Shown here in pieces: positions 13,311-27,839 of a DNA stretch of 64,000 nt. Source of the stretch: Martelella mediterranea DSM 17316 (GTDB taxonomy: Bacteria > Pseudomonadota > Alphaproteobacteria > Rhizobiales > Rhizobiaceae); assembly GCF_002043005.1 (NCBI RefSeq), contig NZ_CP020330.1:4606001-4670000 (forward strand), given 5' to 3'. A model generated the notes under the pieces. The model was not told the origin of the DNA, made no database searches, and saw only the letters and a program-made list of their open reading frames with translations. The position numbers and the translations under genes are program-made. Position 1 is the first letter of the stretch. Each line of letters begins with the position of its first letter.

Positions 13311-13411
13311 CGCGTCCAGGAAAAGTGGATACCGGTTCTCCGTCCGGACGCACGTGAAAACAAACAGATAGAGCATTTCCGGTGATCCGGTTTTCAACGG
13401 AAATGCTCTGG
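13311..13411. repeat. Rhizobiales-type intergenic repeat with terminal hairpin
   Basis: The stretch gtccaggaaaagtggatac...gtccggacgc...aaacaaacagatagagc resembles a repeat common between genes in rhizobia. It ends in a dyad, agagcatttccg (13372-13383) with cggaaatgctct (13399-13410), which could serve as a bidirectional terminator for the convergent RES and LysR genes. The right arm covers the last codons of the LysR gene. Confidence 0.6.
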
Positions 13412-14317
13412 CTCCGCTGGCGCCTTTCCGAAGGCATTGATTTCCGTCCAGATCAGGTCCTGCACCGCCGTGTGGCCGCCTGCCAGGCGCACCGCCGCCA
13501 CCGTCAGCAGCGTGTGAGGCAGCACGTCTCGGAGGTCGAAGAGCAGGCCGGCGCGGATCGCGTCCCTGGCAATGCTTTCCGGCACCCAGGCGACGCCGAC
13601 GCCGCTGATCGCGAATTGCAGGGCGGCCAGCGTCAGCGCGGTCTCGACCTTGCGGCGGACGAACTCGCCGCTCGGGACCTGCGGCATCACCTCCTCGTTG
13701 AAAATCCGGCCGAGAAAGGCGTCGCTCGGATAGGCGATCACCGGCAGTTCGCCGCGCGCATAACTGTCGTTCAGCACGCCGAGACCATGGGTGGCGAACA
13801 CCGGGATAAAGGCTTCCGTGCCGAGATTGACCCGTTCGAGATAGTCCTCGGTCTCCGCCGCTGCCTCGGCCACCGACTGGTAGTTCAGCAGAAGATCGGC
13901 CTGCTTGGTCATCAGCAGCGCCAGACACTCGTCGCGATTGGCCGAGCGCAGGCGCACGCTGACGTCGATCGTGTTCGAGAACGCCTCGATGATGCCCGGG
14001 GCTCGCGACGTGGTGATCGCGTGCTGGCTCGCAATCACGATGCGGTTGTTGGCCTCGCGCCCCTGCCGACGCAGTTCGTAAAGCAGGTCCTTCATCTCGG
14101 AGACCAGCCGCTTGATCTCCTCCTGCTGGGCGGAGATCGACGGCTTGAGGCCGACGGGCTTGCGGTCCCGATCGAACAATTCGGCGCCGACATAATCCTC
14201 GATCGCGCGGATACGGCGCGAGAAGGCCGGCTGAGTGACGTTGCGCCGCGCGGCGGCCGCATTGAACGATCCGGTCTCCACCACCGCCAGGATATCCTCG
14301 AGCCATTCAAGCCGCAT
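13394..14317 (-). CDS. LysR-family transcriptional regulator of the sulfonate cluster
   Basis: 307 residues. The N-terminal LysR helix-turn-helix is clear (WLEDILAVVETGSFNAAAARRNVTQPAFSRRIRAIEDYVGAELFDRD). The remaining part is the ligand-binding domain (ANRDECLALLMTKQADLLLNYQ, FAISGVGVAWVPESIARD). It is divergent from the cuyA-like gene with about 110 bases between start codons; a 15-bp dyad (14332-14346) in that gap is a likely binding site. It most likely activates the rightward eight-gene cluster in response to a sulfonate or its product. Confidence 0.88.
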   Translation of the reverse strand: MRLEWLEDILAVVETGSFNAAAARRNVTQPAFSRRIRAIEDYVGAELFDRDRKPVGLKPSISAQQEEIKRLVSEMKDLLYELRRQGREANNRIVIASQHAITTSRAPGIIEAFSNTIDVSVRLRSANRDECLALLMTKQADLLLNYQSVAEAAAETEDYLERVNLGTEAFIPVFATHGLGVLNDSYARGELPVIAYPSDAFLGRIFNEEVMPQVPSGEFVRRKVETALTLAALQFAISGVGVAWVPESIARDAIRAGLLFDLRDVLPHTLLTVAAVRLAGGHTAVQDLIWTEINAFGKAPAEPEHFR

Positions 14318-14331
14318 GAAAGCCTCCTAAT

Positions 14332-14346
14332 ATGCACACCTTGCAT
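14332..14346. promoter_or_regulatory. Candidate LysR binding site
   Basis: The dyad atgca-cacct-tgcat is a 15-bp perfect inverted repeat with a T-N11-A core, in the 112-base gap between the divergent LysR and cuyA-like starts. Two copies of the palindrome ttgatcaa follow at 14368-14375 and 14411-14418, 43 bases apart, possibly further sites on the same DNA face. Confidence 0.5.
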
Positions 14347-14429
14347 TTTATCGCGCGAAAACGGCATTTGATCAACGAAAGGAAATGCGCAAGATTTGAA
14401 ATCACGCAATTTGATCAAGGTTGGTTTCC

Positions 14430-15455
14430 ATGCATCTCGCCCGTTTTCCCCGCGTTCATCTGGCCCACCTGCCAACGCCTCTGGAGCGGCTCGACCGCCT
14501 GACGGCGGAACTCGGCGGCCCCGAAATCTGGATCAAGCGCGACGATTGCACCGGGCTTTCGACCGGCGGCAACAAGACCCGCAAGCTGGAATTCCTGATG
14601 GCCGAAGCCCAGGCGATGAAAGCCGACGTGGTGATGACCCAGGGCGCAACGCAGTCCAACCATGCCCGCCAGACGGCCGCCGCCGCCGCCAAGCTCGGCA
14701 TGGCCTGCCATGTCCTGCTTGAGGACCGCACCGGCTCCAACGACCCGAACTACAATGAAAACGGCAACGTCTTCCTCGACTACCTCCACGGCGCCACCGC
14801 CGAAAAGCGCCCCGGCGGGCTGGACATGAATGCCGAGATGGAAGCTGTCGCCGACGAGATCCGCAAGACCGGCAAGACGGTCTACACCATCCCCGGCGGC
14901 GGCTCGAATGCGACCGGCGCGCTCGGCTATGCCAATTGCGCGCTGGAACTGGTCTATCAGGCCAATGAGCGCGATCTCGCGATCGATCATCTGGTGCACG
15001 CCACCGGCAGCGCCGGCACCCAGGCGGGCCTGATCGTCGGCCTCAAGGCAACCAACGCGCAAATCCCGCTCTTGGGCATCGGCGTGCGCGCGCCGAAGCC
15101 GAAACAGGAGGAAAACGTCTACAAGCTTGCCCTTGCGACCGCCGAAAAGCTCGGCTGCCCGGGCGTCGTCGCCCGCGAGGATGTGGTCGCCAATACCGAT
15201 TATGTCGGCGAGGGCTACGGCATCCCCGCCCCCTCCACGATCGAGGCGATCGAGATGTTCGCCCAGGTCGAAGGCATCCTTCTGGACCCGGTCTATTCGG
15301 GCAAGGGCGCTGCCGGCCTGATCGACCTGATCCGCAAGGGCATGTTCAAGAAAGGTGAAAAGATCGTTTTTCTCCATACCGGCGGTTCGGCAGGATTGTT
15401 TGGCTATACAAGCGCTTTCGCCTTCGATCATACTACCCCCGTCGCCGCCGAATAG
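14430..15455 (+). CDS. cuyA: PLP-dependent L-cysteate sulfo-lyase (CuyA-like) / D-cysteine desulfhydrase family
   Basis: 341 residues from the ATG at 14430, which gives the family N-terminus MHLARFPR; an in-frame TTG at 14421 is possible. The enzyme belongs to the ACC-deaminase/D-cysteine desulfhydrase fold-type II group. The PLP lysine is in the [10 protein letters not shown] motif (about residue 49), with [28 protein letters not shown] and [11 protein letters not shown] phosphate-binding blocks. CuyA splits L-cysteate to pyruvate, ammonia and sulfite. The neighbours (a sulfonate transporter, racemase and HpsN-like dehydrogenase) favour cysteate over D-cysteine. It is the first gene of the rightward cluster. 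Confidence 0.72.
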
Positions 15456-15470
15456 AAGGTCATTTCCTTT

Positions 15471-16673
15471 ATGGCACCGAAACCGTTTGCGGGCACGTTT
15501 ACCCAGCAGGAACCGCTTGGCGAGGCGGCGATTGCCGCTGCTATCCGCGTGCTCGAAAGCGGCAGGCTGCATCGCTACAACACGGTTGCCGGCGAGACCG
15601 CGGAGGCGGCGCTGCTCGAGGCGGAATTCGCCGCCTTTCAGGGCGTGGATTACTGCCTCGCCTGCGCCTCCGGCGGCTATGCCATGCATATCGCGCTGAT
15701 GGCGGCCGGCCTGAAGCACGGCGAGCCGGTGCTGACCAACGGCTTCACGCTGTCGCCGGTGCCCGGCGCGATCGTCAACGCCGGCGGAAAGCCGGTGCTC
15801 GTCGAATGCACGCGCAATCTGGTGATCGACCTTGACGATCTGGAGCAAAAGGCCGCCGGCGCGCGGTTTCTACTGCTCTCCCACATGCGCGGCCATATCG
15901 CCGACATGGACCGGCTGATGGCGATCGCGGACCGTCACGGCCTGACGGTGATCGAGGATTGCGCCCACACGATGGGGGCAGACTGGAACGGCACGAAAAG
16001 CGGCAATTTCGGCCTTGCCGCCTGTTTCAGCACCCAGACCTACAAGCACATGAATTCCGGCGAGGGCGGGTTACTCACTTCCAACGATCCGGATTTCATG
16101 GCCCGCGCCATCATCCTCTCCGGCTCCTACATGCTTTACGAGCGCCATGGCGCGGCGCCCGCCAGGAGCCATTTCGAAAAGGCGCGGCTCGAAACGCCCA
16201 ATTGCTCGGGCCGGATGGACAATCTGCGCGCCGCGATCCTGCGCCCGCAACTCGCCGGACTTGAAAAGAATATCGAGCGCTGGAACGACCGCTATAGCAC
16301 CATCGAGACAGCGCTGAAGTCCTCCGGCCTGTTCCATCTGCCCGAGCGCCCGGCGGCGGAGCATCCCGTCGGCAGTTCCATCCAGTTTCTGGCGGAAGAC
16401 ATCGCGCCTGACGCGGCCCGCGCCTTCGTGGCCAATGCGAAGGCGCTCGGCGTCGAGCTCAAATGGTTCGGCGATGCCGATCCCGTCGCCTTTACCAGCA
16501 ATCATCATAGCTGGCGCTTCATCGCCGATCAGGCGCTGCCCAAGACCGATCGGGTGCTTTCCGGCCTGTTCGACATGCGCATCCCGCTGACCTTCAGCAT
16601 CGATGACTGCGCCCATATCGCCGCGATCATCATCCATTGCGGCGAACAGATGCGCCTCAAGGGGGCTGCGTAA
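15471..16673 (+). CDS. DegT/DnrJ/EryC1/StrS-family PLP aminotransferase
   Basis: 400 residues. Fold-type I features are the GGYAMHIALMAAGLKHGEPVL loop, VIEDCAHTMGADW (Asp contacting the PLP ring), and QTYKHMNSGEGGLL with the Schiff-base lysine. The family usually transaminates ketosugars, but members occur outside sugar clusters. Here it sits 15 bases after the cuyA-like gene and 1 base before the racemase, so a role on a sulfonate amine or keto acid is more likely than in cell-surface sugars. The substrate is unknown. Confidence 0.8.
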   Translation: MAPKPFAGTFTQQEPLGEAAIAAAIRVLESGRLHRYNTVAGETAEAALLEAEFAAFQGVDYCLACASGGYAMHIALMAAGLKHGEPVLTNGFTLSPVPGAIVNAGGKPVLVECTRNLVIDLDDLEQKAAGARFLLLSHMRGHIADMDRLMAIADRHGLTVIEDCAHTMGADWNGTKSGNFGLAACFSTQTYKHMNSGEGGLLTSNDPDFMARAIILSGSYMLYERHGAAPARSHFEKARLETPNCSGRMDNLRAAILRPQLAGLEKNIERWNDRYSTIETALKSSGLFHLPERPAAEHPVGSSIQFLAEDIAPDAARAFVANAKALGVELKWFGDADPVAFTSNHHSWRFIADQALPKTDRVLSGLFDMRIPLTFSIDDCAHIAAIIIHCGEQMRLKGAA

Positions 16674-16674
16674 C

Positions 16675-17370
16675 ATGCGGCGGATCGGGATTATCGGCGG
16701 CATGGGGCCGGAGGCGACGGTGCTTCTGATGAGCCGCATTATTGCCGCCACGCCGGCCAGGGACGATGCCGACCATGTGCCGATGATCGTCGACAACAAC
16801 CCGCAGGTTCCCTCGCGCATCAAGGCGCTGATCGAGGGCGGCGGCGAGGACCCCGGCCCGGTGATTGCCGGCATGGCGCAAAAGATCGAGGCATTCGGGG
16901 CGGAAGCGCTCGCCATGCCCTGCAACACCGCCCATCATTATGCCGAAGAAATCCGCAATGCGGTCGCCATTCCCTTCATCGACATGGTGAGGCTGACGGT
17001 CGACGCGATCAGCTCCGAAACCCGGCCCGGCGCGAAGATCGGCATGCTGGCGTCGCCCGCCCTGCGCATCACCGGGGTTTTCGACAAGGCCTTTACCGGC
17101 ACCGGTCGCATTCCGCTCTATCTTGCCGACGACGGCCCTCTTCTGGAACTGATCCGCCACATCAAGATCCACGGCGCGGATGACAATGCCCGCGCGCAGA
17201 TGACGGTGGCTTCCCGCGCGCTGATCTGCGAAGGCGCGGACATGCTGCTGATTGCTTGTTCGGAATTGTCGCTGGTCTCAGGCGCCGTCGATCCGGCGGC
17301 CCATTCCATTGACACGATCGATCTTCTGGCCGGCGCATGCATCGCCTTTTCAAGCGGGCAGGAGACGTGA
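16675..17370 (+). CDS. Aspartate/glutamate racemase family protein (possible cysteate racemase)
   Basis: 231 residues from the ATG directly after the previous stop (the longer frame from 16603 would lie inside the aminotransferase). It has the aspartate-racemase opening RRIGIIGGMGPEAT, a first catalytic Cys in MPCNTAHHY and a second in LLIACSELSL. The family is PLP-independent and inverts C-alpha using two cysteines. Cysteate is the sulfonate analogue of aspartate, so in this setting D- to L-cysteate conversion feeding CuyA is an attractive but unproven role. Confidence 0.78.
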   Translation: MRRIGIIGGMGPEATVLLMSRIIAATPARDDADHVPMIVDNNPQVPSRIKALIEGGGEDPGPVIAGMAQKIEAFGAEALAMPCNTAHHYAEEIRNAVAIPFIDMVRLTVDAISSETRPGAKIGMLASPALRITGVFDKAFTGTGRIPLYLADDGPLLELIRHIKIHGADDNARAQMTVASRALICEGADMLLIACSELSLVSGAVDPAAHSIDTIDLLAGACIAFSSGQET

Positions 17371-17460
17371 CAGAATAACGGCTGAACCTGCAATGCGGGA
17401 AGCGGTCTCAGCCTCAACAACAATAACAATGCCCGCGCCAAACCAAATCTGGAGAGTGGA

Positions 17461-18447
17461 ATGTTGAAAACTTTGATGACTGGCGTGATCGCAGGCTCGG
17501 TCACCGTGCTGATGTCAGGCGCCGCCTTTGCAGAAACAGTGATTATCGGCCATTTCGGCAACCCGACGCCGATGCAGCTCCTGGCCTCGTCCGACGCCGT
17601 TGAACAGGCGACCGGCTGGGATGTCGAGTGGCGCAAATTTGCCGCCGGCACGGATGTGATCGCTGCCATGGCATCCGGCGACGTGGTTCTGTCCGAGCTT
17701 GGCTCCTCGCCGCTCGCCATTGCCGCCAGCCAGGGCGTGGACCTGCAGATGATCGCGTTTTCGGATGTGATCGGCAAGGCGGAATCCCTGATCGTGGCCA
17801 AGGATTCCGGCATCGAGACGCTGGCCGACCTCAAGGGCAAGCGGATTGCCGTGCCGGTCGGCTCGACCGCGCATTTCTCGCTGATGGGCGCGCTGAAGCA
17901 TGAGGGCATCGCCGAGGGCGACGTCACCATCATGAACATGCCGCCGGATCAGATCGCCGCCGCCTGGGAACAGAACGCCATCGACGCCGCCTGGATCTGG
18001 CAGCCCGTCCAGGCGCAGATTTCCGAAACCGGCACGCTTCTGCTCGGCGCGGACGAAACTGCCGCCTGGGGCTACCCGACCTTCGACGCCTGGGTGGTCA
18101 ACACCGAATTCGGCGAAGAGAACAAGGACCAGATCGTCGCCTTTCTGAAGGAGGTCGACCGGGTCAACAAGGAGTATCTCGCCGATCCCTCGAAATGGAC
18201 CGCCGACAGCGAGCCGGTGAAGACGCTCGCCGAGGCGACCGGCGCCGATCCGTCACAGGTTCCGGGCATTCTCGAAGGCTTCGCCTTCCTGCCGCTGTCG
18301 GAACAGGTTTCCGATACCTGGCTCGGCGGCGCTGCCGAGACCATCAAGGGTACGGCCGAATTCCTGAAGTCCGCGGGCCGCATCGATAACGTCGCCGAAG
18401 ACTACGCGCCCTTCGTCAACGTCGACTACGCCGAAGCCGCGAAATAG
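17461..18447 (+). CDS. Sulfonate/taurine ABC transporter substrate-binding protein (TauA-like)
   Basis: 328 residues with a Sec signal peptide (residues 1-24, ending AAFA). The core follows the TauA/SsuA pattern: VIIGHFGNPTPMQLL, then TGWDVEWRKFAAGTDVIAAMASGDVVLSELGSSPLAIAAS, LKGKRIAVPVGSTAHFSLMGAL and DAAWIWQPVQAQI. It delivers the substrate to the two downstream transporter genes. It lies 90 bases after the racemase gene, with a GGAGAG-type ribosome site. Confidence 0.87.
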   Translation: MLKTLMTGVIAGSVTVLMSGAAFAETVIIGHFGNPTPMQLLASSDAVEQATGWDVEWRKFAAGTDVIAAMASGDVVLSELGSSPLAIAASQGVDLQMIAFSDVIGKAESLIVAKDSGIETLADLKGKRIAVPVGSTAHFSLMGALKHEGIAEGDVTIMNMPPDQIAAAWEQNAIDAAWIWQPVQAQISETGTLLLGADETAAWGYPTFDAWVVNTEFGEENKDQIVAFLKEVDRVNKEYLADPSKWTADSEPVKTLAEATGADPSQVPGILEGFAFLPLSEQVSDTWLGGAAETIKGTAEFLKSAGRIDNVAEDYAPFVNVDYAEAAK

Positions 18448-18510
18448 GCCCGGCAATCTCCACGCAACGCCCCCGGCCCGCAAGGTCCGGGGGCAGATGG
18501 GACCACGATC

Positions 18511-19299
18511 ATGGTGTTGGAAATCAACAGGGCCTCCGTCGTCTATCCCTCCGCCAGCGGAAACGCGCCGGTGGAGGCGCTCCGGGAGATCGACCTTTCG
18601 CTTGGCGAAGGCGATTTCGTCGTGGCGCTCGGCGCTTCGGGTTGCGGAAAATCGACGCTTCTCAATCTCATCGCGGGTTTCCTGTCGCCGACCAGCGGCG
18701 AGATCCTGCTGGACGGCCACAAGGTCGAGGGCCCCGGCGCCGACCGCTCGGTGGTGTTCCAGAAGCACGCGCTGATGCCGTGGCTGACGGTGCGCGAAAA
18801 CGTCGCCTTCGGGCTGAAGCTGCAGGGCCGCCCCAAGGCCGAGCGCGACCAGATCGCCGAAAAATTCATCGCGCTGCTCGGCCTTACGGGCTTCGAGGAT
18901 TCCCCGATCTATGCGCTTTCGGGCGGCATGCAGCAGCGCATCGGCATTGCCCGGGCGCTGACCTGCGACCCGCGCGTGCTGCTGATGGACGAGCCGCTGG
19001 GCGCGCTCGACGCGCTGACGCGCGAAAAGGCCCAGGAACTCATTCTGAAAATCTGGGACAACACCAGAAAGACTGTGTTCTTCATTACCCACAGCGTCGA
19101 GGAAGCGCTCTTCATGGGCACGAAGCTGATCGTGATGTCGCCGCGCCCCGGCCGCATCACCCACCGCTTCGACCTGCCATTTTCACGCCAGTTCATCGAG
19201 GGTGCCAAAGCGCGCGAGGTCAAGGCCTCGCCCGAATTCATCAAACTGCGCGAGGAGGTGCTCTCCATCATCTTCGCCGACGAGGAAGATGCGGCATGA
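18511..19299 (+). CDS. Sulfonate/taurine ABC transporter ATP-binding protein (TauB-like)
   Basis: 262 residues. Walker A is GASGCGKST at residues 41-49, the signature is LSGGMQQRIGIARAL, and Walker B is LLMDEPLGALD. The D-loop and H-loop (FFITHSVEEALF) follow. The SVVFQKHALMPWLTVRENVAFGLKL region is typical of the TauB/SsuB/NrtD branch. Its stop overlaps the permease start (ATGA). Confidence 0.9.
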   Translation: MVLEINRASVVYPSASGNAPVEALREIDLSLGEGDFVVALGASGCGKSTLLNLIAGFLSPTSGEILLDGHKVEGPGADRSVVFQKHALMPWLTVRENVAFGLKLQGRPKAERDQIAEKFIALLGLTGFEDSPIYALSGGMQQRIGIARALTCDPRVLLMDEPLGALDALTREKAQELILKIWDNTRKTVFFITHSVEEALFMGTKLIVMSPRPGRITHRFDLPFSRQFIEGAKAREVKASPEFIKLREEVLSIIFADEEDAA

Positions 19300-20192
19300 G
19301 CGATATCACCAAGACCAAGCCGGCGGAGACAGAAGGTCCCGCGCCGCGCAGGAAAAGCGGCGGCCTCATCGCGCGCCTTGCCAAGGGGCGGGCGACGCGG
19401 CCGGGCGAGACCTACGGCGTGCCGGGCTATGGCGACACGGTGATCCTCAGCTTCGTCACCATCCTCGTCCTGATCGGGATCTGGTGGGCTGTCACCGCGC
19501 TCGGGCTGGTAAAGCCGCTATTCGTACCGTCGCCGGTGGCGATCGTGGCGAAGTTCTTCGACACGATGCAGAACGGTTTCACCGGCACGCCGCTCTACGT
19601 CCATATCCTGATTTCCGCCGCCCGCGTGTTCAGCGCTTTTCTTCTGGCCTGCGTGATTGGCATACCGCTGGGGCTTGCCATGGGCATGAGCCCGCTGGTG
19701 CGTGGCATTTTCGATCCGCCGATCGAATTCTACCGCCCGATCCCGCCGCTTGCCTATCTGCCGCTGATGATCATCTGGTTCGGCATTGGCGAGACCTCCA
19801 AGGTGCTGCTGATCTTCCTGTCGGTGTTCGCGCCGGTGGCGCTCGGCGCCCGTTCCGGGGTCAAATCGGCGGCGATCGAGCAGATCCATGCCGCCTATTC
19901 CTTCGGCGCCAGCCGCTGGAAGGTGATGCGCTACGTGATCCTGCCGTCCGCCCTGCCGGAAATCCTGACCGCCATGCGCATCGGCATCGGCTTCGGCTGG
20001 ACCACGCTGGTGGCCGCCGAAATGGTCGCCGCCACCAAGGGCATCGGCTACATGGTGCTGTCGGCCTCGCAATTCCTGCAGACCCCGACGGTGATCATGG
20101 GCATCATCGTGATCGCGGCCATTGCCTATGCCTTCGACATGCTGATGCGCTTTCTCGAGCGCAGGCTGGTGCCATGGAAGGGCAAGGCTTAA
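19296..20192 (+). CDS. Sulfonate/taurine ABC transporter permease (TauC-like)
   Basis: 298 residues from the ATG at 19296, which overlaps the ATPase stop; a longer frame upstream is inside the ATPase gene. About six membrane helices follow a basic 45-residue N-terminal tail. The permease consensus loop is SFGASRWKVMRYVILPSALPEILTAMRIGIGFGWTTLVAAEM. It forms the membrane channel of the cluster's importer together with the two genes before it. Confidence 0.9.
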   Translation: MSDITKTKPAETEGPAPRRKSGGLIARLAKGRATRPGETYGVPGYGDTVILSFVTILVLIGIWWAVTALGLVKPLFVPSPVAIVAKFFDTMQNGFTGTPLYVHILISAARVFSAFLLACVIGIPLGLAMGMSPLVRGIFDPPIEFYRPIPPLAYLPLMIIWFGIGETSKVLLIFLSVFAPVALGARSGVKSAAIEQIHAAYSFGASRWKVMRYVILPSALPEILTAMRIGIGFGWTTLVAAEMVAATKGIGYMVLSASQFLQTPTVIMGIIVIAAIAYAFDMLMRFLERRLVPWKGKA

Positions 20193-20247
20193 AGCCCCCT
20201 GCCCTGTTTCCGTTTCCTGCAATATCCCGATGTGAAGGGGGTGTTTC

Positions 20248-21555
20248 GTGCCGCGTACATATCTGAAGAAGGCGCTCAAGACCGCTGAAAGCGATGCCGC
20301 CGCCGTGACCGGGATCGTCCAGACCATCCTCGACGAGATCGAGGCGGGCGGCGAGGAAGCGGCAAAAGCCTATGCCGAGAAGTTTGACCGCTATGACGGC
20401 AATATCGTCGTCACCCGCGCGGAGATCGAGGCTGCGGCCGCCAGCCTGCCGCAGAAGCTTAAGGACGATATCCGCTTTGCCCACGACAATATCCGCCGGT
20501 TCGCGGAGGCCCAGAAGGCGACGTTGAGCGAGACCGAAATCGAGATCGCGCCCGGCTTCTTCGCCGGCCAGAAGATCATCCCATGCCAGGCCGCCGGCTG
20601 CTATGTGCCGGGCGGGCGCTACAGCCATGTCGCCTCGGCGATCATGACGGTGACGACGGCCAGGGTCGCAGGCTGCCAGCATATCGCGGTCGCCTCGCCG
20701 CCCCGGCCGGAAACCGGCGTCCATCCCGCCATTCTCTACACCGCCGATCTTTGCGGCGCAGACAGCATCCTCGCCATGGGCGGCGTGCAGGGCGTAGCGT
20801 CGATGGCCTTCGGCCTGTTCGGCCAGCCGAAGGCCGATATTCTGGTCGGCCCCGGAAACCAGTTCGTGGCGGAAGCCAAGCGCATCCTGTTCGGCCGCGT
20901 CGGCATCGACATGTTCGCCGGTCCGACCGACAGTCTGGTGATTGCCGACGCCAGCGCCGATCCCGAAATCGTCGCCGCCGATCTCGTCGGCCAGGCCGAG
21001 CACGGCTATAATTCCCCTGTCTGGCTGGTGACCGACAGCGGCGCGCTTGCCGAGAAGGTGATGGCGCTCGCGCCCGGCCTCATCGACAGCCTGCCCGAGC
21101 CGAACCGGGCAAGCGCGGAAGCGGCCTGGCGCGACTATGCCGAGGTGATTGTCTGCGACACAATCGAGGAGGTTGCCGCGACCGCCGATGACTACGCGCC
21201 GGAACATCTGAGCGTGCAGGCCGAGAACCTCGACTGGTGGCTTGCCCGGCTGAAATGCTACGGCTCGCTGTTCCTCGGCGAGGAGACCACCGTGGCCTAT
21301 GGCGACAAGGCCGCCGGCACCAATCATGTGCTGCCCACCTCCGGCGCCGCGCGCTATACCGGCGGGCTTTCGGTGCACAAGTTCCTGAAGGTGGTGACCT
21401 GGCAGCGTTCAAGCCGGGACGCCTCGAAGCCGGTGGCGCTCGCCACCGCGCGGATTTCGCGGCTTGAGGGCATGGAAGGCCACGCCCGCACCGCCGACAT
21501 CCGACTGGCGAAATATTTCCCCGGCGAGAATTTCGACCTCGCGGCGGTCGAGTGA
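20248..21555 (+). CDS. Histidinol dehydrogenase family protein, HpsN (sulfopropanediol dehydrogenase)-like
   Basis: 435 residues from a GTG after GAAGGGGG. Core HisD features: AGCYVPGGRYSHVASAIMT, AMGGVQGVASMAFGLFG, VGPGNQFVAEAKR, AGPTDSLVIAD, the metal-site QAEHGYNSPVWLVT and GTNHVLPTSGAARYTGGLSVHKFLK. The wording of these blocks is closer to HpsN, which oxidises dihydroxypropanesulfonate to sulfolactate, than to histidine-pathway HisD, and no his genes are nearby. HisD-type enzymes oxidise an alcohol to an acid with two NAD+. In this cluster a sulfonated alcohol or amino alcohol is the likely substrate. Confidence 0.8.
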   Translation: MPRTYLKKALKTAESDAAAVTGIVQTILDEIEAGGEEAAKAYAEKFDRYDGNIVVTRAEIEAAAASLPQKLKDDIRFAHDNIRRFAEAQKATLSETEIEIAPGFFAGQKIIPCQAAGCYVPGGRYSHVASAIMTVTTARVAGCQHIAVASPPRPETGVHPAILYTADLCGADSILAMGGVQGVASMAFGLFGQPKADILVGPGNQFVAEAKRILFGRVGIDMFAGPTDSLVIADASADPEIVAADLVGQAEHGYNSPVWLVTDSGALAEKVMALAPGLIDSLPEPNRASAEAAWRDYAEVIVCDTIEEVAATADDYAPEHLSVQAENLDWWLARLKCYGSLFLGEETTVAYGDKAAGTNHVLPTSGAARYTGGLSVHKFLKVVTWQRSSRDASKPVALATARISRLEGMEGHARTADIRLAKYFPGENFDLAAVE

Positions 21556-22352
21556 AGGTGGCGGGGCCGCTCATCTGCCGGGACGAGGGCGAAGGCCCGG
21601 AGCTGGTGCTGGTCCATGGCTATCTTGGCGGCGCGGGCATGTGGGACGGCCAGTTCGCGGCCTTTGCCGGACGCTTCCGCTGCATCGCGCCAAACCTTGC
21701 CGGCTTCGGCGCGAGCAGCCATCTCGAAGCGCCCGAAAGCATCGATGGCCACGCCCGGCTGGTGTTCGAGACGCTGGATGCTCTCGGCGTCGAACGCTTC
21801 CGCCTGCTTGGCCATTCCATGGGCGGCATGGTGGTCCAGCAGATGGCGGCGATGGCGCCGGAGCGGATCGAAAAGCTCGTTCTCTATGGCACGGGACCGG
21901 TGGGCGTTCTGCCGAACCGCTTCGAGACGATCGAAACCTCCCGCCGGCGCATACGATCCGACGGCCTCGAAGCGACCGCCGCCCGCATCGCCGCGACATG
22001 GTTCATGAAGGGCGCCGACGCGGAAGGTTATGCAATCTGCGTCGCCGAAGGGGCGCGCGCCAGCCTTCAGGCGGCACTCGCCAGCCTCACCGCCTGGGAG
22101 CATTGGGACGGCACCGCGGCGCTTCCACATTTCCCGATGCCGACGCTCGTCGTCTGGGGCGATGGCGACCGCTCCTATGGCTGGAGCCAGCCGGAGACGC
22201 TCTGGAAAAACATCCCCGGCTGCCGCCTCGCCGTCGTGCCCGGCGCGGCGCATAACGTGCACATGGAGAAGCCGGAGATTTTCAATATGATCGTTGCGGA
22301 TTTTCTGTCCGACGACAGTTGCCCGGCATGGACGCCTGGCCCTTTTCGCTAA
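21552..22352 (+). CDS. Alpha/beta hydrolase at the end of the sulfonate cluster
   Basis: 266 residues from a GTG that overlaps the previous stop (GTGA), so it is coupled to the HpsN-like gene. Catalytic triad candidates are Ser in GHSMGGM, Asp in VVWGDGDRSYGW and His in GAAHNVHME; the oxyanion region is LVHGYLGGAGMW. No signal peptide. It may release the sulfonate from an ester, lactone or amide, but the substrate is unknown. The last four bases overlap the convergent TolC-like gene. Confidence 0.85.
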   Translation: MKVAGPLICRDEGEGPELVLVHGYLGGAGMWDGQFAAFAGRFRCIAPNLAGFGASSHLEAPESIDGHARLVFETLDALGVERFRLLGHSMGGMVVQQMAAMAPERIEKLVLYGTGPVGVLPNRFETIETSRRRIRSDGLEATAARIAATWFMKGADAEGYAICVAEGARASLQAALASLTAWEHWDGTAALPHFPMPTLVVWGDGDRSYGWSQPETLWKNIPGCRLAVVPGAAHNVHMEKPEIFNMIVADFLSDDSCPAWTPGPFR

Positions 22353-23860
22353 CCCGCCTCGGGAAAAAGTGTCTTACTTCCGATCGCATTTGTTACCGGA
22401 AGCGGCTGGGGTTGCGAGGGTTCTTCCGCTTTTTCCGACGGAGCCGCCTCCTCCTCACCGACATCGACGCCGAAACTGTCGATGGGATAGCCGTACAGCG
22501 TCACATTGGAGAGGCCGAGAGCGGAGCGGAGCGTGCCGCCGGTGAGATGGCATTGCAACAGCGCGATGTCGAGGTCGCGCTCGCTGTCGCTGCGCTCGAT
22601 CAGGGCGTTGTAGTAATCCTCCTCCGCATCCAGCAGGTCATTGAGGTTGCGGGTGCCGAGATCGAAATACTGGCTGCGATAAAGCGCCCGGGTCTGATCG
22701 AGCAATTTCGTCTGGGTGTTCGCGGATGCAATCAACTGACGGGCGTTGGTCATGGCGGTTCCGGCGTCAAGCGCATCGAGCGAGGCGGTCTGGCGCACCT
22801 TGTCGAGGCGCGCCTTCGCGGCGGCAAGAGCGTCCTCGGCCGCCCTTCTCGCCGCTTCGATCGCGCCCCCCTGCCACAGCGTCGGCAGCACGTTGAAATT
22901 GATGCCCACCCTGAACCCCTCGTCATAAAGCGGCTGGCGGCCATAGGCCTCGGCCGAGACGCCGGGCAGGCGCGCCTTTTGGGCGTCTTCATATTCAAGC
23001 TGGGCCTGGGCGATTTCCAGATGCGCCAGCGCCACGTCCGGAAGCGTATCGGGCACCGTCGGCGCCGGCGTGCAGGCTCCTGGGACCTTCTCCAAGTCCA
23101 CATTGAGATCGATGGCGAAGGGCCCCGAATATTCACGAAGCTGATTGGCGGCCCGGTCGCGCTCGGATTGCATTTCGAGCAGATCGTGACGCGCTTTCTC
23201 GAGGCTGTTTTGCGCCGCCAGCACATCCGGCTGGGTGGTAGCGCCCGCCGATGCGCGCTGGCCGATCAGATTGCTCAACTCGCCGAGCCGCTTGACCCGT
23301 TCCTGGTCTATTTTGACATTGTTGCGGTAGCGGCTGAATTCGGCGTAGGCGGTCAGCACGTCCATCAGCACCTGATCGGCATTGGCCTGAAACTCCAGCA
23401 CGGCTTCCTGTGCGGAAAGGTCGGCGCGCGCCACCTCGCGGTCTGTTCTGCCGAAATCGAACAGCAACTGGTTGGCTGAAAGCACGAAGGACGGATCGTC
23501 GGCATCGCCGACGCCACCGGTCACGCCGCCGCTGACCGTCGGCAGGTAGCCACCCTTGGCGACATCGATATTGCCGGTTGCCTCGCGAATCGTAGCGGCG
23601 CTCTCGATCATCGCCGGGCTCTGGTAAAGCGCCACCTGCACCAGACCGTCAATGCTCTGGCCGGCCGCCGTCAGGTCCGCAGGCTTGTCGATTTCCGGCC
23701 GATCCTGCTGGATCGATCCGGTCCTGTCTTCGAATGATACGGAGGGTCGTCCAGCTCCACTTGTCGAGCAACCGGCAACGCCACCGGCCACGCCGACGCA
23801 AAGTGCGAGCAACAGACGCCGTGCGGCAGGAGCCGCACAGTGCATAATATATTGTGTCAC
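22349..23860 (-). CDS. TolC-family outer membrane channel of the type I secretion locus
   Basis: 503 residues. A lipoprotein-like signal sequence (LLLALCVGVAGGVAGC) is followed by two TolC-type halves rich in long coiled coils: QSIDGLVQVALYQSPAMIESAATIREATGNIDVAKGGYLPTVS, the segments around NQLLFDFGRTDREV and GASAGATTQPDVLAAQNSLEKARHDLLEMQSERDRAANQ, and a second half with EAARRAAEDALAAAKARLDKVRQ and RSQYFDLGTRNLNDLLDAEEDYYNALIERSDSERDLDIALLQ. It should form the outer membrane exit for the adhesin exported by the neighbouring HlyD and ABC proteins. It is the last gene of the leftward locus. Confidence 0.88.
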   Translation of the reverse strand: MTQYIMHCAAPAARRLLLALCVGVAGGVAGCSTSGAGRPSVSFEDRTGSIQQDRPEIDKPADLTAAGQSIDGLVQVALYQSPAMIESAATIREATGNIDVAKGGYLPTVSGGVTGGVGDADDPSFVLSANQLLFDFGRTDREVARADLSAQEAVLEFQANADQVLMDVLTAYAEFSRYRNNVKIDQERVKRLGELSNLIGQRASAGATTQPDVLAAQNSLEKARHDLLEMQSERDRAANQLREYSGPFAIDLNVDLEKVPGACTPAPTVPDTLPDVALAHLEIAQAQLEYEDAQKARLPGVSAEAYGRQPLYDEGFRVGINFNVLPTLWQGGAIEAARRAAEDALAAAKARLDKVRQTASLDALDAGTAMTNARQLIASANTQTKLLDQTRALYRSQYFDLGTRNLNDLLDAEEDYYNALIERSDSERDLDIALLQCHLTGGTLRSALGLSNVTLYGYPIDSFGVDVGEEEAAPSEKAEEPSQPQPLPVTNAIGSKTLFPEAG

Positions 23861-24013
23861 CGCGTTTCCATGCTATGCGGTCTTGAGAAAGCGCCCAAAA
23901 CCGGCCTCCCAGGACTGCTTTGTTCCCGAGCGGACAACGCACGCACAGATTGCTGCGGGAGAAGAACGAATCAGTTATGAATCAACATAACCGATTGATT
24001 CGTTATCCACAAC

Positions 24014-24418
24014 TTAGTTGCGACCGATCACGAGGTCTCGGCATTGCGGGCGACGCCATACGGTTTCTTCAACCGCGTTGCCATTGCCGAACAGGACCTT
24101 GTACTGGCAGACGATCTCGCCGTCCTCCGCCGTGACGAATTTGAGATTGTAATCCCACGCCTTGCCATTCTTGGCCATGCTTACGGGCTGGCCGAGCAGA
24201 GAGGCAACGTCGTTCCGCGAAGCGCCGAGCTGGATCTCGCGGACACGATCGACGGTGACGGGCTTGCCGGGGCGGACAAAATAGGCGTCGAGTTCGGTCA
24301 GCGCCGGCGACACGCTGTCAAACCGCATGTTCGGGTTATGGACATTCAGCATGCCCGCGCTGGCGGCACCGGCGGACAGAACGCCCGTGAGGACGGCGAT
24401 GGATATGGTCTTCAGCAT
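24014..24418 (-). CDS. Small exported protein with BamE/SmpA-like domain
   Basis: 134 residues from the ATG at 24418 (GGAGAG upstream). A signal peptide (residues 1-21) is followed by TVDRVREIQLGASRNDVASLLGQPVSMAKNGKAWDYNLKF and a C-terminal CQYKVLFGNGNAVEETVWRRPQC. The LGxSRxxVxxLLGxP pattern is that of BamE/SmpA/OmlA-type beta-alpha domains in the periplasm, often attached to the outer membrane; here there is no lipobox. It lies between the HlyD gene and the TolC gene, so it may help assemble or anchor the secreted surface protein. Confidence 0.7.
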   Translation of the reverse strand: MLKTISIAVLTGVLSAGAASAGMLNVHNPNMRFDSVSPALTELDAYFVRPGKPVTVDRVREIQLGASRNDVASLLGQPVSMAKNGKAWDYNLKFVTAEDGEIVCQYKVLFGNGNAVEETVWRRPQCRDLVIGRN

Positions 24419-24474
24419 TTCTCTCTCCTTCAGTTTCATTGACATCATTTCGCCCTGTCGGGCCTTTCATGCGA

Positions 24475-25656
24475 TCAGCGCTCCCTGAGAGCCTCCCGGC
24501 CCCGATTGAGCGGCTTGATGAGATAGTCCCAGACGGTCTTTTCGCCCGTCTTGATATCGACGGTCGCGATCATGCCGGGGGAAATGGGAAACCGCTTGCC
24601 GGCCGCATTCACCAGCGCATCGGAGGCGGTGCGGATATAGACCCGGTAATAGAGGTTTTCCGGATTGATCTCGTCGCGGATCGTGTCCGGCGAGATGTTC
24701 TCGACCGTGCCGTCAAGTCCGCCGTAGACCGAGTAATCATAGGCGGTGATTTTCACCAGCGCGTCCTGGCCGGGGTGAATGAAGGCGATATCGCGCGGGG
24801 AAACCCGGGCCTCGATCAGGAGCTGATCGTTGAGCGGCACGATCGTCATGACCGCGCCGTTCGGCGAAATCACGCCGCCGATCGTCGTCACCGCCACGTC
24901 CTTGATCACGCCATGGACCGGGGAGCGGATCGTGGTGTGGGAAATCGTGTCCTCCAGCCCGTTGAGCGTGGACAGCAACGACTGCACCTCGGCCTGCGCC
25001 TCGGCCAGCTTCTCGCCGGTCTCGATGACGTATTTGGAGCGCATGTCGTCCATTCTGAGCTTGATGTCGCCCCGGTCGCGCTTGAGCTTGATCAGTTCGA
25101 CCTTGCTCGCCGCCCCGGTCGCGAGCAGCGGCGTTGTCAGGCGAAGCTGCTCCTCGAGCAGCGCCATGTCGGCTTCCATATCGGCGATGGATTCATGGTA
25201 GCTTTCCGTCCGGGCCGTAAACAGCGCCTGCTCCGAGGCTCTGAGCTCGGGATAGTCGTCGAGCGCCGCCGGAAAGGTCACGGCCTCCGCGCCCGTGACT
25301 TCCGCCTGCAGCCGGGCCGCCTGGGCCAGCGAAGCGCGGTAGCGCGCCGCCGTCTCGTCATATTCGGACTTGGCGCGGGTCGGATCGAGCCGCGCCAGCA
25401 CCTGACCCTTGTCGACGATCTCGCCGGCGCTGACATCGAGTTCGGCCAGAATGCCGCCGTCGAAGGACTGGATCACCTGTTCATGCGAGAGCGGCACCAC
25501 CGTACCGGGTCCCGACGACACCTCCTCCACGGAGAAGAAGTATGCCCAGACGAAGAAGGCGGCGAGGATCAGGAATAGCACCAGCACGACCCTGTTCGCG
25601 CCGCTGGCGGAAATATCGTCGCCCTCGATAAGGCTGTCATAGGAAGCGGCGCTCAT
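24475..25656 (-). CDS. HlyD-family type I secretion periplasmic adaptor
   Basis: 393 residues. One N-terminal membrane helix (about 24-45, VVLVLFLILAAFFVWAYFF) is followed by a biotinyl-lipoyl half (VVPLSHEQVIQSFDGGILAELDVSAGEIVDKGQVLARLDPT), a long coiled-coil hairpin and the second lipoyl half (IRSPVHGVIKDVAVTTIGGVI). The C-terminal beta domain ends in SPGMIATVDIKTGEKTVWDYLIKPL, the HlyD family signature. It links the inner membrane ABC protein to TolC. Its ATG overlaps the ABC gene stop. Confidence 0.92.
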   Translation of the reverse strand: MSAASYDSLIEGDDISASGANRVVLVLFLILAAFFVWAYFFSVEEVSSGPGTVVPLSHEQVIQSFDGGILAELDVSAGEIVDKGQVLARLDPTRAKSEYDETAARYRASLAQAARLQAEVTGAEAVTFPAALDDYPELRASEQALFTARTESYHESIADMEADMALLEEQLRLTTPLLATGAASKVELIKLKRDRGDIKLRMDDMRSKYVIETGEKLAEAQAEVQSLLSTLNGLEDTISHTTIRSPVHGVIKDVAVTTIGGVISPNGAVMTIVPLNDQLLIEARVSPRDIAFIHPGQDALVKITAYDYSVYGGLDGTVENISPDTIRDEINPENLYYRVYIRTASDALVNAAGKRFPISPGMIATVDIKTGEKTVWDYLIKPLNRGREALRER

Positions 25657-27839
25657 TGGACCTTTACCTCGCGCTTCCCGGCGGCCAGAGCCTCGCCCTT
25701 GCGCAGGCGCGTCAGAATCGTGTCGCGCGGTCCGTCCATGATGATCTTGCCGTTGGACACGACCAGCAGCCGGTCCACCAGCGCCAGGATCGACGGCTTG
25801 TGGGTGGCGACCACCAGCGTGGTTTCCCCTGCCAGTTCCGAAAGCGCGGAAAGCACTTTCTGCTCCGCGGTCTCATCAAGCGCGGCCGTCGGCTCGTCGA
25901 GCAGGATCACGGAGGGTTCGCGCAACAGCAGGCGCGACAGGATGATGGCCTGGCGCTGGCCGCCGGAAAGGCCGATACCGCCTTCCTGGATCTGCCGGTC
26001 GAGCCCCTCGGGCATGGCGCGGATGAATTCCCACGCGCCGGTGCGCTCAAGGGCGGCAATCAGTTCCTCGTCGCGGGCATTGGGCGCGCCGAGGCAGAGA
26101 TTTTCCCGGATCGTGCCGTAGAACAGCCGGGCATTCTGGCCGGCAAGGCCGATATGACGGCGCAGATCGGCCGGATCGACATGGGTAATGTTGACGCCAT
26201 CGACCAGAACCGTGCCCGAGCGCGCTTCCATCAGCCCCGAAAGCCCCTGCAGCAGGGTCGACTTGCCGGCGCCGTTGCGGCCGATAATGCCGACCTTGGA
26301 GCCCGCCGCGATCTTCAGACGCTCGACGGTGAGCACCGGCTCCTTTTCATAGGCAAAGACCGCATTCGCGAACTGAAATTCGCCCTTGATCACCGGCTTG
26401 TGGATGCGCTTGGCGTTTTCGGGATGATCGACCGGCAGCGTCATGATCTTGTCGAGGCTTTCGCCGGCGATCTTGGCCTGCTGCCAACGGTTGAGGATCT
26501 GCGCCACGCCGGCGAGCGGCGCCAGCATGCGGGTCGACAGCATGGCGGCGGCAACCAGCGCGCCGGTCGTCATGTCGCCGAACATCACCGCCGGCGCGCC
26601 GGCCGCGACCACGGCGATATAGACCATGCCCTGCACGGTCTGCGTCCAGTTGCCGAGCGTGCCGACGAGATCGCGCAGCTTCATGCCGCTGTCGGCGTTG
26701 ACGGCGTTGTAATGGTTCCAGTGGTTCTGGAACCGATCCTCGGCCTGCAGCAGCTTGATGTCGTCGAGCCCCTGAACGGCCTCGACAAGCATGGCGTTGC
26801 GCAGCGCGGATTCGCGCATATTGGCCTTGGCCAGCGCCCTGAGCCGGCCCTGAGCCAGAACGCCAGGCAGGATTAGAAGCAGCACGGCCACCGCCGGAAC
26901 CCAGACCAGGTTGCCCGCAACCCACCAGAAGATGAGGCAGAACAGCAGAAAGAACGGGATATCCGCGATCGCCGAGACGGCCGACGAGGTCATCATCTCG
27001 CGCACGTGTTCGAGTTCGCGAAGCTGCGCGATGAAGGTGCCGGTCGCCTGCGGGCGGGCGCTGTTCTTCACGCGCAGCGCATGACCGAAGACCTTGTCGG
27101 ATATGCGCAGATCGGCCCGTTTGCCAATCACATCGGTGATCTTCATGCGCATCTGGCGCATGACAAAGGCGAATATCACCGCGATGAGCGCGCCGCCGCC
27201 GAGCACGAACAGCGTCGGATAGGATTGCGCCGGCACCACGCGGTCATAGACCTGCATGGAGAAGATGACGCTGGCGAGCGCGAGGATATTGGCCGCAAGC
27301 GAGGCCAGCATGATGAACACATAGGGCCTGAGATCGGCAAGGACGATCGATCTCATCCAGTGTTTGCGGAACGGCTCGATATAATTGTCGATCCGCCCAT
27401 CCGGCATGCCGCCGGCCGGCCGGATCACCGCCACCAGTTCGACCCTGTCCCGGATCCCGGCAATCTTGATATCCGATGTCAGCCCGCCATCGCCGGAAAA
27501 GCCGAGCGTCAGCCGGTCGCCATTGCGCCGGGTGGCGACGGCAACCTCGCCATCCTTCAAAACCAGCACGACCGGCAGCCGCATATCGTTGATCTTGCGA
27601 AGATCGGTGCTGATGAAGCGGATCGCAAGCCCGGCCTGGCGGGCAAGCTTGCCGAAACTTCTCTTGCGGTCGCCGCTGTTATCCCAGGCATCGGCGAGCC
27701 GAAGCTGCTCGGGCGAGCAGTCGATCCGGTAATGGCCGGCAACCGTCAGCAGGGCCTCGATCCAGCGGGCCGAAACGGTACCGGTCGAAAGCTCGATCTC
27801 TTCGCCGCTCTCGCGATTTCTGTTGATGTGGATATTCAT
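25653..27839 (-). CDS. Type I secretion ABC transporter (LapB-like, with degenerate C39 domain)
   Basis: 728 residues. An N-terminal C39-peptidase-like domain of about 150 residues lacks the catalytic Cys at its expected first position. Next comes a six-helix membrane domain (about 165-480) and the nucleotide-binding domain: Walker A GRNGAGKST (about 518), GLSGGQRQAIILSR signature, Walker B VILLDEPTAALD (about 645). It is of the LapB/HlyB type that exports large RTX or Ig-repeat adhesins with uncleaved C-terminal signals. It directly follows the adhesin gene in the same direction. Confidence 0.92.
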   Translation of the reverse strand: MNIHINRNRESGEEIELSTGTVSARWIEALLTVAGHYRIDCSPEQLRLADAWDNSGDRKRSFGKLARQAGLAIRFISTDLRKINDMRLPVVLVLKDGEVAVATRRNGDRLTLGFSGDGGLTSDIKIAGIRDRVELVAVIRPAGGMPDGRIDNYIEPFRKHWMRSIVLADLRPYVFIMLASLAANILALASVIFSMQVYDRVVPAQSYPTLFVLGGGALIAVIFAFVMRQMRMKITDVIGKRADLRISDKVFGHALRVKNSARPQATGTFIAQLRELEHVREMMTSSAVSAIADIPFFLLFCLIFWWVAGNLVWVPAVAVLLLILPGVLAQGRLRALAKANMRESALRNAMLVEAVQGLDDIKLLQAEDRFQNHWNHYNAVNADSGMKLRDLVGTLGNWTQTVQGMVYIAVVAAGAPAVMFGDMTTGALVAAAMLSTRMLAPLAGVAQILNRWQQAKIAGESLDKIMTLPVDHPENAKRIHKPVIKGEFQFANAVFAYEKEPVLTVERLKIAAGSKVGIIGRNGAGKSTLLQGLSGLMEARSGTVLVDGVNITHVDPADLRRHIGLAGQNARLFYGTIRENLCLGAPNARDEELIAALERTGAWEFIRAMPEGLDRQIQEGGIGLSGGQRQAIILSRLLLREPSVILLDEPTAALDETAEQKVLSALSELAGETTLVVATHKPSILALVDRLLVVSNGKIIMDGPRDTILTRLRKGEALAAGKREVKVQ

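Follow-up and report, generated by a model that had tools for sequence, protein, structure and literature searches.

A Martelella mediterranea operon joining hpsN, degT and cuyAB, with a possible role in cysteinolate desulfonation

Introduction

The closest described system to the one studied here is the CuyA branch of dihydroxypropanesulfonate (DHPS) catabolism in Ruegeria pomeroyi and Roseovarius nubinhibens (HpsNOP, SlcD and CuyA; PMC11382572). In that branch, HpsN carries out the oxidation, and CuyB and CuyA desulfonate to pyruvate, ammonium and sulfite. In marine algae, cysteinolic acid reaches concentrations in the range of dimethylsulfoniopropionate and DHPS, and associated bacteria may consume it (PMC8703288). 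A literature search limited to openly available papers, partly in excerpt, with subscription papers and preprints outside it, found no bacterial genes for cysteinolate.

Here we analyse an operon of Martelella mediterranea DSM 17316 (genome of 5.69 Mb in 4 contigs, completeness 100, contamination 0.84). It lies in a stretch of 64,000 nucleotides (contig NZ_CP020330.1, positions 4,606,001 to 4,670,000), which we call the window. The operon has HpsN, CuyB and CuyA in common with the branch described above, but it lacks HpsO, HpsP and SlcD and contains a DegT-family aminotransferase and a taurine-type ATP-binding cassette (ABC) importer. On balance, we consider it a probable LysR-controlled system that takes up a three-carbon sulfonate of the 2-amino-alcohol type, most likely cysteinolate, and removes its sulfonate group.

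Gene content of the locus

An earlier annotation made from the letters alone (the sequence-only reading) had listed a divergent LysR gene followed by eight co-directional genes, and all nine were found again where it had placed them, the eight on the + strand at 14430-22352:

13394..14317, - strand: LysR-type regulator, divergent from the operon (PF00126/PF03466, HTH_1)
14430..15455, + strand: CuyA, D-cysteate sulfo-lyase dependent on pyridoxal phosphate (PLP) (NF052482, 554 bits, cut-off 450; PLP lysine in 38/38 aligned rows)
15471..16673, + strand: DegT-family aminotransferase, predicted to use cysteinolate and/or cysteate-sulfopyruvate (PF01041, 189 bits; PLP lysine in 58/58 rows)
16675..17370, + strand: CuyB, cysteate racemase (NF052483, 278 bits, cut-off 190; both catalytic cysteines in 44/44 rows)
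17461..18447, + strand: TauA-like substrate-binding protein (TIGR01729, 308, cut-off 304; 6ssy, 216 bits)
18511..19299, + strand: TauB-like ATPase (PRK11248, 328 bits, below the cut-off of 357)
19296..20192, + strand: TauC-like permease (PRK10160, 322 bits, below the cut-off of 342)
20248..21555, + strand: HpsN-family Zn/NAD dehydrogenase, putatively oxidising cysteinolate or its 2-keto form (PF00815, 449 bits; 8wwe, 657 bits)
21552..22352, + strand: alpha/beta hydrolase (PF00561, Abhydrolase_1, 105 bits)

Distances between the eight operon genes range from a 4-base overlap, as between the HpsN and hydrolase genes, up to 90 bases. The likely start codons are ATG at 14430 for CuyA and ATG at 16675, 1 base after the DegT stop, for CuyB.

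CuyA and CuyB are named by NCBIfam models, both over their curated cut-offs. The title of an older paper, known to us from a reference list, reportedly names an L-cysteate sulpho-lyase. According to PMC11382572, with which the NCBIfam model agrees, the substrate of CuyA is D-cysteate supplied by CuyB. This reverses the direction assumed in the sequence-only reading, where the racemase could make L-cysteate for CuyA. The same reading had called the three ABC genes a sulfonate importer, which holds: they are of the taurine type rather than the SsuABC type, and the best solved relative of TauA is the taurine-binding protein 6ssy. All three subunits correspond to those of the taurine importer TauABC; the differences are that TauB and TauC stay below their cut-offs and that the operon has no taurine enzymes.

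In the proposed route, TauABC would import the zwitterion. In a four-electron oxidation with NAD+ and Zn, HpsN would then make L-cysteate by turning the CH2OH group into a carboxylate. CuyB would convert this L-cysteate to D-cysteate, and CuyA would split the latter into pyruvate, ammonium and sulfite. DegT might either interconvert cysteate and sulfopyruvate or turn cysteinolate into its 2-keto form, which HpsN would oxidise to sulfopyruvate for re-amination to cysteate. The reactions of CuyA and CuyB (PMC11382572) and the chemistry of HpsN on R-DHPS (PMC11382572, PMC11131964) come from the literature, while we infer the substrate, the order of the steps, the DegT reaction and the regulation. 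The claim of a complete cysteinolate pathway in one operon stands in part: the route looks self-contained via cysteate, but the substrate is unproven and DegT had been left out.

Comparison with DHPS operons

The search for HpsN gave at least 575 loci, and the best 80 of them supplied the 68 DHPS loci (HpsN with HpsO or HpsP, without DegT or CuyA) of the comparison. The DegT loci came from 40 of the 54 other matched genomes of an order-level draw, in which 55 of 397 genomes (own included) had DegT at E <= 1e-80, and from 10/10 plasmids. A class-level draw, with CuyB over cut-off in 22 of 385 genomes, gave the CuyB loci (of the 23 places over cut-off, 20 fetched ones and the window were used). 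Marker genes were mapped by tblastn on the fetched loci, with thresholds chosen after the baseline identities were known. The names HpsO, HpsP, SuyA, SuyB, SlcD and Ldh2 are our own assignments from operon place and size; NCBIfam returned only broad dehydrogenase or dehydratase families for the scanned marker genes. One HpsN match (L160, 34%) turned out to be HisD and was left out of the residue table and the counts.

HpsO or HpsP occurred in none of the 23 loci that combine HpsN, DegT and CuyA/B. A gene for the sulfolactate route was present in one of them (SlcD-like, L041) and in at least 47 of the 68 DHPS loci (Fisher p 4e-8; this p-value and those below that set DegT loci against DHPS loci are guides only and overstate the contrast, since the groups contain related strains and each was retrieved with a query of its own, which weakens the case for cysteinolate). 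The 47, a lower bound owing to contig ends, comprise loci with SuyB (24), ComE (22), SlcD-like (15) and Ldh2-like (9) genes.

The importers differ as well. TauA or ProX genes accompany 19/23 of the HpsN-DegT-Cuy loci and none of the 68 DHPS loci (p 5e-16), and genes of tripartite ATP-independent periplasmic (TRAP) transporters are found in 4/23 and 39/68, respectively. The TauA/ProX bias suits a zwitterion rather than the anion DHPS. A YeiH-type gene, annotated as a putative sulfate exporter, is present in 10/23 and 12/68.

No recognisable sulfolactate route was detected in the window's own genome, where ComE, SuyB, SlcD and HpsP were searched for (HpsO, ComD and SlcC lay outside the search). 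The best ComE match scored 43 bits against a cut-off of 221, and nothing exceeded 33% for HpsP; the operon itself has neither HpsO nor HpsP. For SuyB the best match was 33%, against 64-91% identity to the query among the SuyBs encoded next to hpsNOP. SlcD-like proteins reached 39% at best (60-69% in other loci) and Ldh2-type dehydrogenases 38% (46-60% beside hpsNOP). Two own-genome proteins (L236, L237) were rejected as SuyB at 32-33% to SuyB beside hpsNOP, and L007:2228-3748 was dropped as a SuyB query, being an unlinked UxaA-like protein. Two Xsc genes over cut-off are presumably for taurine.

As SuyB, ComE, SlcD and HpsP were not recognised and CuyB and CuyA adjoin HpsN, cysteate rather than sulfolactate is the likely HpsN product. 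This in turn suggests a 2-amino-alcohol sulfonate as the substrate, best cysteinolate. The preference of the sequence-only reading for cysteinolate over DHPS therefore fits the context better, given the missing HpsO/P, the importer type and the unrecognised sulfolactate route.

Identity of the dehydrogenase

The dehydrogenase had been called HisD/HpsN-like; the second half of the name holds and the ambiguity does not. Among solved structures it matches the R-DHPS dehydrogenase 8wwe at 657 bits, CpHpsN (8v35) at 529 and the best HisD at 249, and 238 of 429 aligned residues are identical to CpHpsN. It also passes the NCBIfam hisD model TIGR00069 (445 bits, cut-off 244), and the seventh gene is named hisD in 9 of 10 plasmid records (it is absent from the listing of the tenth). 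We rejected an identity as HisD in view of the bit scores, the presence of H126 and a separate HisD gene elsewhere in the genome (PF00815, 564 bits).

The window enzyme has the GRYSH motif (GRY[A/S]H in HpsN, with the sulfonate-contacting H126) and K353, numbered as in PMC11382572. Both residues are present in 101/101 grouped HpsN rows, window included, and the cell's own HisD has Tyr at both places. The catalytic E318, H319 and D352 and the zinc ligands Q248, H251 and H411 are likewise found in 101/101 rows but are common to HisD too and not diagnostic. The enzyme therefore shares sequence, zinc, sulfonate-contact and catalytic residues with the sulfopropanediol 3-dehydrogenases (8wwe, 8v35) and probably their chemistry; it differs in its genomic partners, and its substrate may carry an amine or keto group at C2 instead of a hydroxyl. 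With HisD it shares the fold, and the oxidation of a 2-amino alcohol is the chemistry proposed here. Two further HisD-family proteins of the same genome (L002 and L004, contig C4), which share 41 and 45% identity with the window HpsN, keep K353 and lack the HpsN histidine.

The C2 amino or hydroxyl group occupies the same Zn site in HisD and HpsN, and L-cysteate was bound in CpHpsN as a product mimic (PMC11382572). RpHpsN, which converts R-DHPS to sulfolactate, is 691-fold poorer at oxidising L-histidinol than at oxidising R-DHPS; for a SAR11 HpsN the difference is only 2.2-fold (PMC11131964). As a C2 amino group can be tolerated on the zinc of this family and a sulfonate can fill the pocket, cysteinolate, which has both, could fit.

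The DegT aminotransferase

The sequence-only reading had set DegT aside, and the loci speak otherwise. In the CuyB draw, which was blind to HpsN and DegT, 4 of the 21 loci had HpsN and all four also had DegT; one had DegT alone and 16 had neither (p 0.0008, window counted; without the window, DegT stands beside HpsN in 3/3). This suggests that DegT goes with the step of HpsN rather than with the use of cysteate itself. It is very improbable, in our view, that the locus is a plain cysteate operon in which HpsN and DegT do unrelated work: the 16 loci with neither gene in the fetched stretch do suggest that cysteate alone needs neither, but the same counts show the two as a joint addition, and the gene order is conserved across genera.

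The nearest solved relatives of DegT, mostly sugar aminotransferases, score only about 105 bits. Its PLP lysine is kept throughout the aligned rows, and the motif regex alone matched 49/54 loci. The partners of the family vary. DegT and HpsN stand beside ComDE in L183 (its near relatives L184 and L189 have no ComE in the stretch) and beside Pta and alanine dehydrogenase in L157, and L156, a contig of 3 kb, carries DegT together with Xsc and Pta. Among the nine loci with HpsN and DegT but without CuyA/B, two carry HpsO/P and two ComE; L028 has both, with DegT beside TauABC and next to hpsNOP-comDE-slcD. L165 has DegT and Cuy genes without HpsN and carries SuyB. In 21 loci DegT occurs without HpsN or CuyA/B, which makes further roles of the family probable. 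Conversely, a bare route exists in Limibaculum, where HpsN lies beside CuyA-CuyB and the genome has no DegT match. The draft genome of Martelella alba has LysR-CuyA-TauABC-HpsN-hydrolase; DegT has no match in it, and no CuyB exceeds the cut-off.

Both cysteate-sulfopyruvate exchange and deamination of cysteinolate to a 2-keto compound fit these data as DegT roles. A literature search for a link between DegT and cysteate returned nothing relevant. To our knowledge, there is no report of an HpsN-family enzyme oxidising 2-oxo-3-hydroxypropanesulfonate to sulfopyruvate. The 2-keto form of cysteinolate has been reported in algae along with cysteinolic acid (PMC11131964). Tentatively, then, transamination may come first: DegT would take cysteinolate of either hand to the prochiral 2-oxo-3-hydroxypropanesulfonate, HpsN would oxidise this to sulfopyruvate, and re-amination would give L-cysteate for CuyB and CuyA. 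If DegT formed the 2-keto compound, HpsN could make sulfopyruvate directly, which would remove the stereochemical problem discussed below. In the HpsN-DegT-ComDE operon (L183), sulfopyruvate would be decarboxylated instead. Such an order would also account for the HpsN-DegT linkage and for a possible fusion of the two.

This possible natural fusion is an open frame at a contig edge (L182:4022-5524, - strand) that joins the C-terminus of HpsN to DegT. No HpsN-DegT protein of fusion length was present among the best 120 of 7717 protein matches, and the fusion is unproven.

Evidence for DHPS as a possible substrate

Several observations weigh against cysteinolate oxidation as proposed above. One concerns stereochemistry, where the sequence-only reading had seen a route with no gap. 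Among the references of PMC8703288, the titles of Wickberg (1957) and Ito (1963) name an L-form of cysteinolic acid and D-cysteinolic acid, respectively, both from algae. By our own reckoning of the Cahn-Ingold-Prelog rules, L(R)-cysteinolate and L(R)-cysteate have the spatial arrangement of R-DHPS, and L-cysteinolate would therefore be the form accepted by an R-selective HpsN. The HpsN enzymes assayed so far are R-selective (PMC11382572, PMC11131964), and CpHpsN prefers R-DHPS 10^6-fold and is inactive on L-histidinol (PMC11382572). The oxidation-first order thus needs L(R)-cysteinolate, and algae are reported with both D- and L-labelled forms.

Residues and phylogeny are no more favourable. 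Among the tabulated positions, none separates amine from hydroxyl substrates and none separates the window HpsN from the DHPS-operon enzymes. At the place of Ser226 in CpHpsN, both the window enzyme and the 68 DHPS-operon rows have Thr. K353 is followed by Ala in 68/68 DHPS rows and in the window, and by mixed residues in DegT-operon rows; in CpHpsN, a proven DHPS enzyme, it is followed by Thr, as in half of the basal rows. In a tree of 78 rows (34 alternate DHPS rows of the 68; a quick method with Shimodaira-Hasegawa-like approximate likelihood ratio (SH-aLRT) support only and several long branches flagged), the Martelella enzymes fall inside the DHPS-HpsN clade, beside Oricola/Hoeflea enzymes of hpsNOP operons (SH-aLRT 97 for this six-row group, 99 for Martelella). 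At least in Martelella, the operon seems to have obtained its HpsN from the DHPS side, which makes a special cysteinolate enzyme less credible. Of the 22 tree rows from HpsN-DegT-Cuy loci, 5 fall within the 49-row clade that holds DHPS rows and 17 outside, some of these in a deep group to which the ComDE pairing also belongs. This suggests that HpsN of either kind can serve in this operon.

These data lead to a different route, already proposed in PMC11382572, in which HpsN makes R-sulfolactate from DHPS, an unlinked dehydrogenase makes sulfopyruvate, and DegT makes L-cysteate for CuyB and CuyA. DegT and CuyB would then be the aminotransferase and racemase called unknown for Ruegeria pomeroyi in that paper. 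This would account for DegT accompanying HpsN (oxidation-first use of cysteinolate needs no DegT) and for the place of the window HpsN in the tree. L041:48-6770, on a gammaproteobacterial contig, carries HpsN and an SlcD-like gene and, divergent from them, DegT-CuyA; it looks like such a DHPS-to-cysteate version. In L152 cuyA is preceded, at a distance of about 6 kb, by an Ldh-family gene (43%, just under the threshold of 45), and the Ldh2-type dehydrogenases of the window's own genome could oxidise sulfolactate, a small opening. We nevertheless consider this DHPS route unlikely, if credible. The other 22 of the 23 loci have no sulfolactate-route gene over threshold, none of those searched for was recognised in the own genome (the Ldh2-like match being ambiguous), the importers are unlike those of DHPS operons, and DegT would be idle in L183.

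Conservation of the module and its neighbours

All nine genes recur in the same order in Martelella limonii (L005), which also has the closest named HpsN relative among the matches listed (92%). The order cuyA-degT-cuyB-tauABC-hpsN is found on plasmids of Ancylobacter, Shinella, Paracoccus alcaliphilus, Ensifer and two Mesorhizobium, and without the intervening tauABC on those of Leisingera and P. seriniphilus. Eight plasmids from other genera thus keep the order cuyA-degT-cuyB...hpsN, and in six of them tauABC has the same position; this, together with M. limonii, argues that the gene set is not due to chance. Rearranged modules were seen on plasmids of Polaromonas and of Pseudomonas sp. MPC6, the latter with a TRAP transporter. 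Overall, the module spans alpha-, beta- and gammaproteobacteria. A relative of the LysR regulator (27-89% identical) is present in 17 of the other 22 HpsN-DegT-Cuy loci.

The last gene of the operon could free cysteinolate from an ester or amide. It is conceivable, but quite doubtful, that a cysteinolate derivative (N-methylated, acylated or esterified) is the substrate, from which the hydrolase here and FAD/GcvT and MttB-like demethylases in relatives would first strip the group. Genes for FAD/GcvT demethylases, MttB-like proteins or ProX lie beside 16/58 DegT loci and 1/68 DHPS loci (p 2e-5), an enrichment that points to amine substrates for the DegT loci, and the hydrolase gene overlaps that of HpsN. 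In P. seriniphilus, FAD oxidoreductase, electron-transfer flavoprotein, FolD, PurU and ABC genes lie in line with cuyA-degT-cuyB-hisD. On the other hand, the window operon has no demethylase, and relatives of the hydrolase (55-79%) were found in only 7 other loci (L005, L015, L146, L147, L148, L152 and L158). We also know of no sulfonate betaines of the cysteinolate type as natural products.

Beside degT with hpsN or cuyAB, genes for an FAD/GcvT demethylase, an MttB-like methyltransferase and/or ProX were noted in L149, L150, L153, L167, L176, L192 and L213, a hint at N-methylated amino-sulfonate substrates.

On either side of the locus, other systems begin. Just ahead of the LysR gene in window coordinates lies a RES-domain protein (PF08808, 12131-13308, + strand), preceded by an open reading frame (ORF) that by eye resembles an Xre/ParS-type antitoxin; the two are likely a toxin-antitoxin pair. 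Convergent with the operon (22349-27839, - strand) are ORFs that by eye resemble parts of a type I secretion system, namely its outer-membrane channel, HlyD-like adaptor and ABC exporter.

Significance

If cysteinolate is indeed the substrate, degT next to hpsN and cuyAB would be a gene marker for tracing its use. If, in addition, transamination comes first, DegT-HpsN would be a portable two-gene entry module that escapes the R-selectivity of HpsN. The module also offers candidates for the aminotransferase and racemase that are described as unknown in PMC11382572. More generally, hpsN alone may not mark the use of DHPS.

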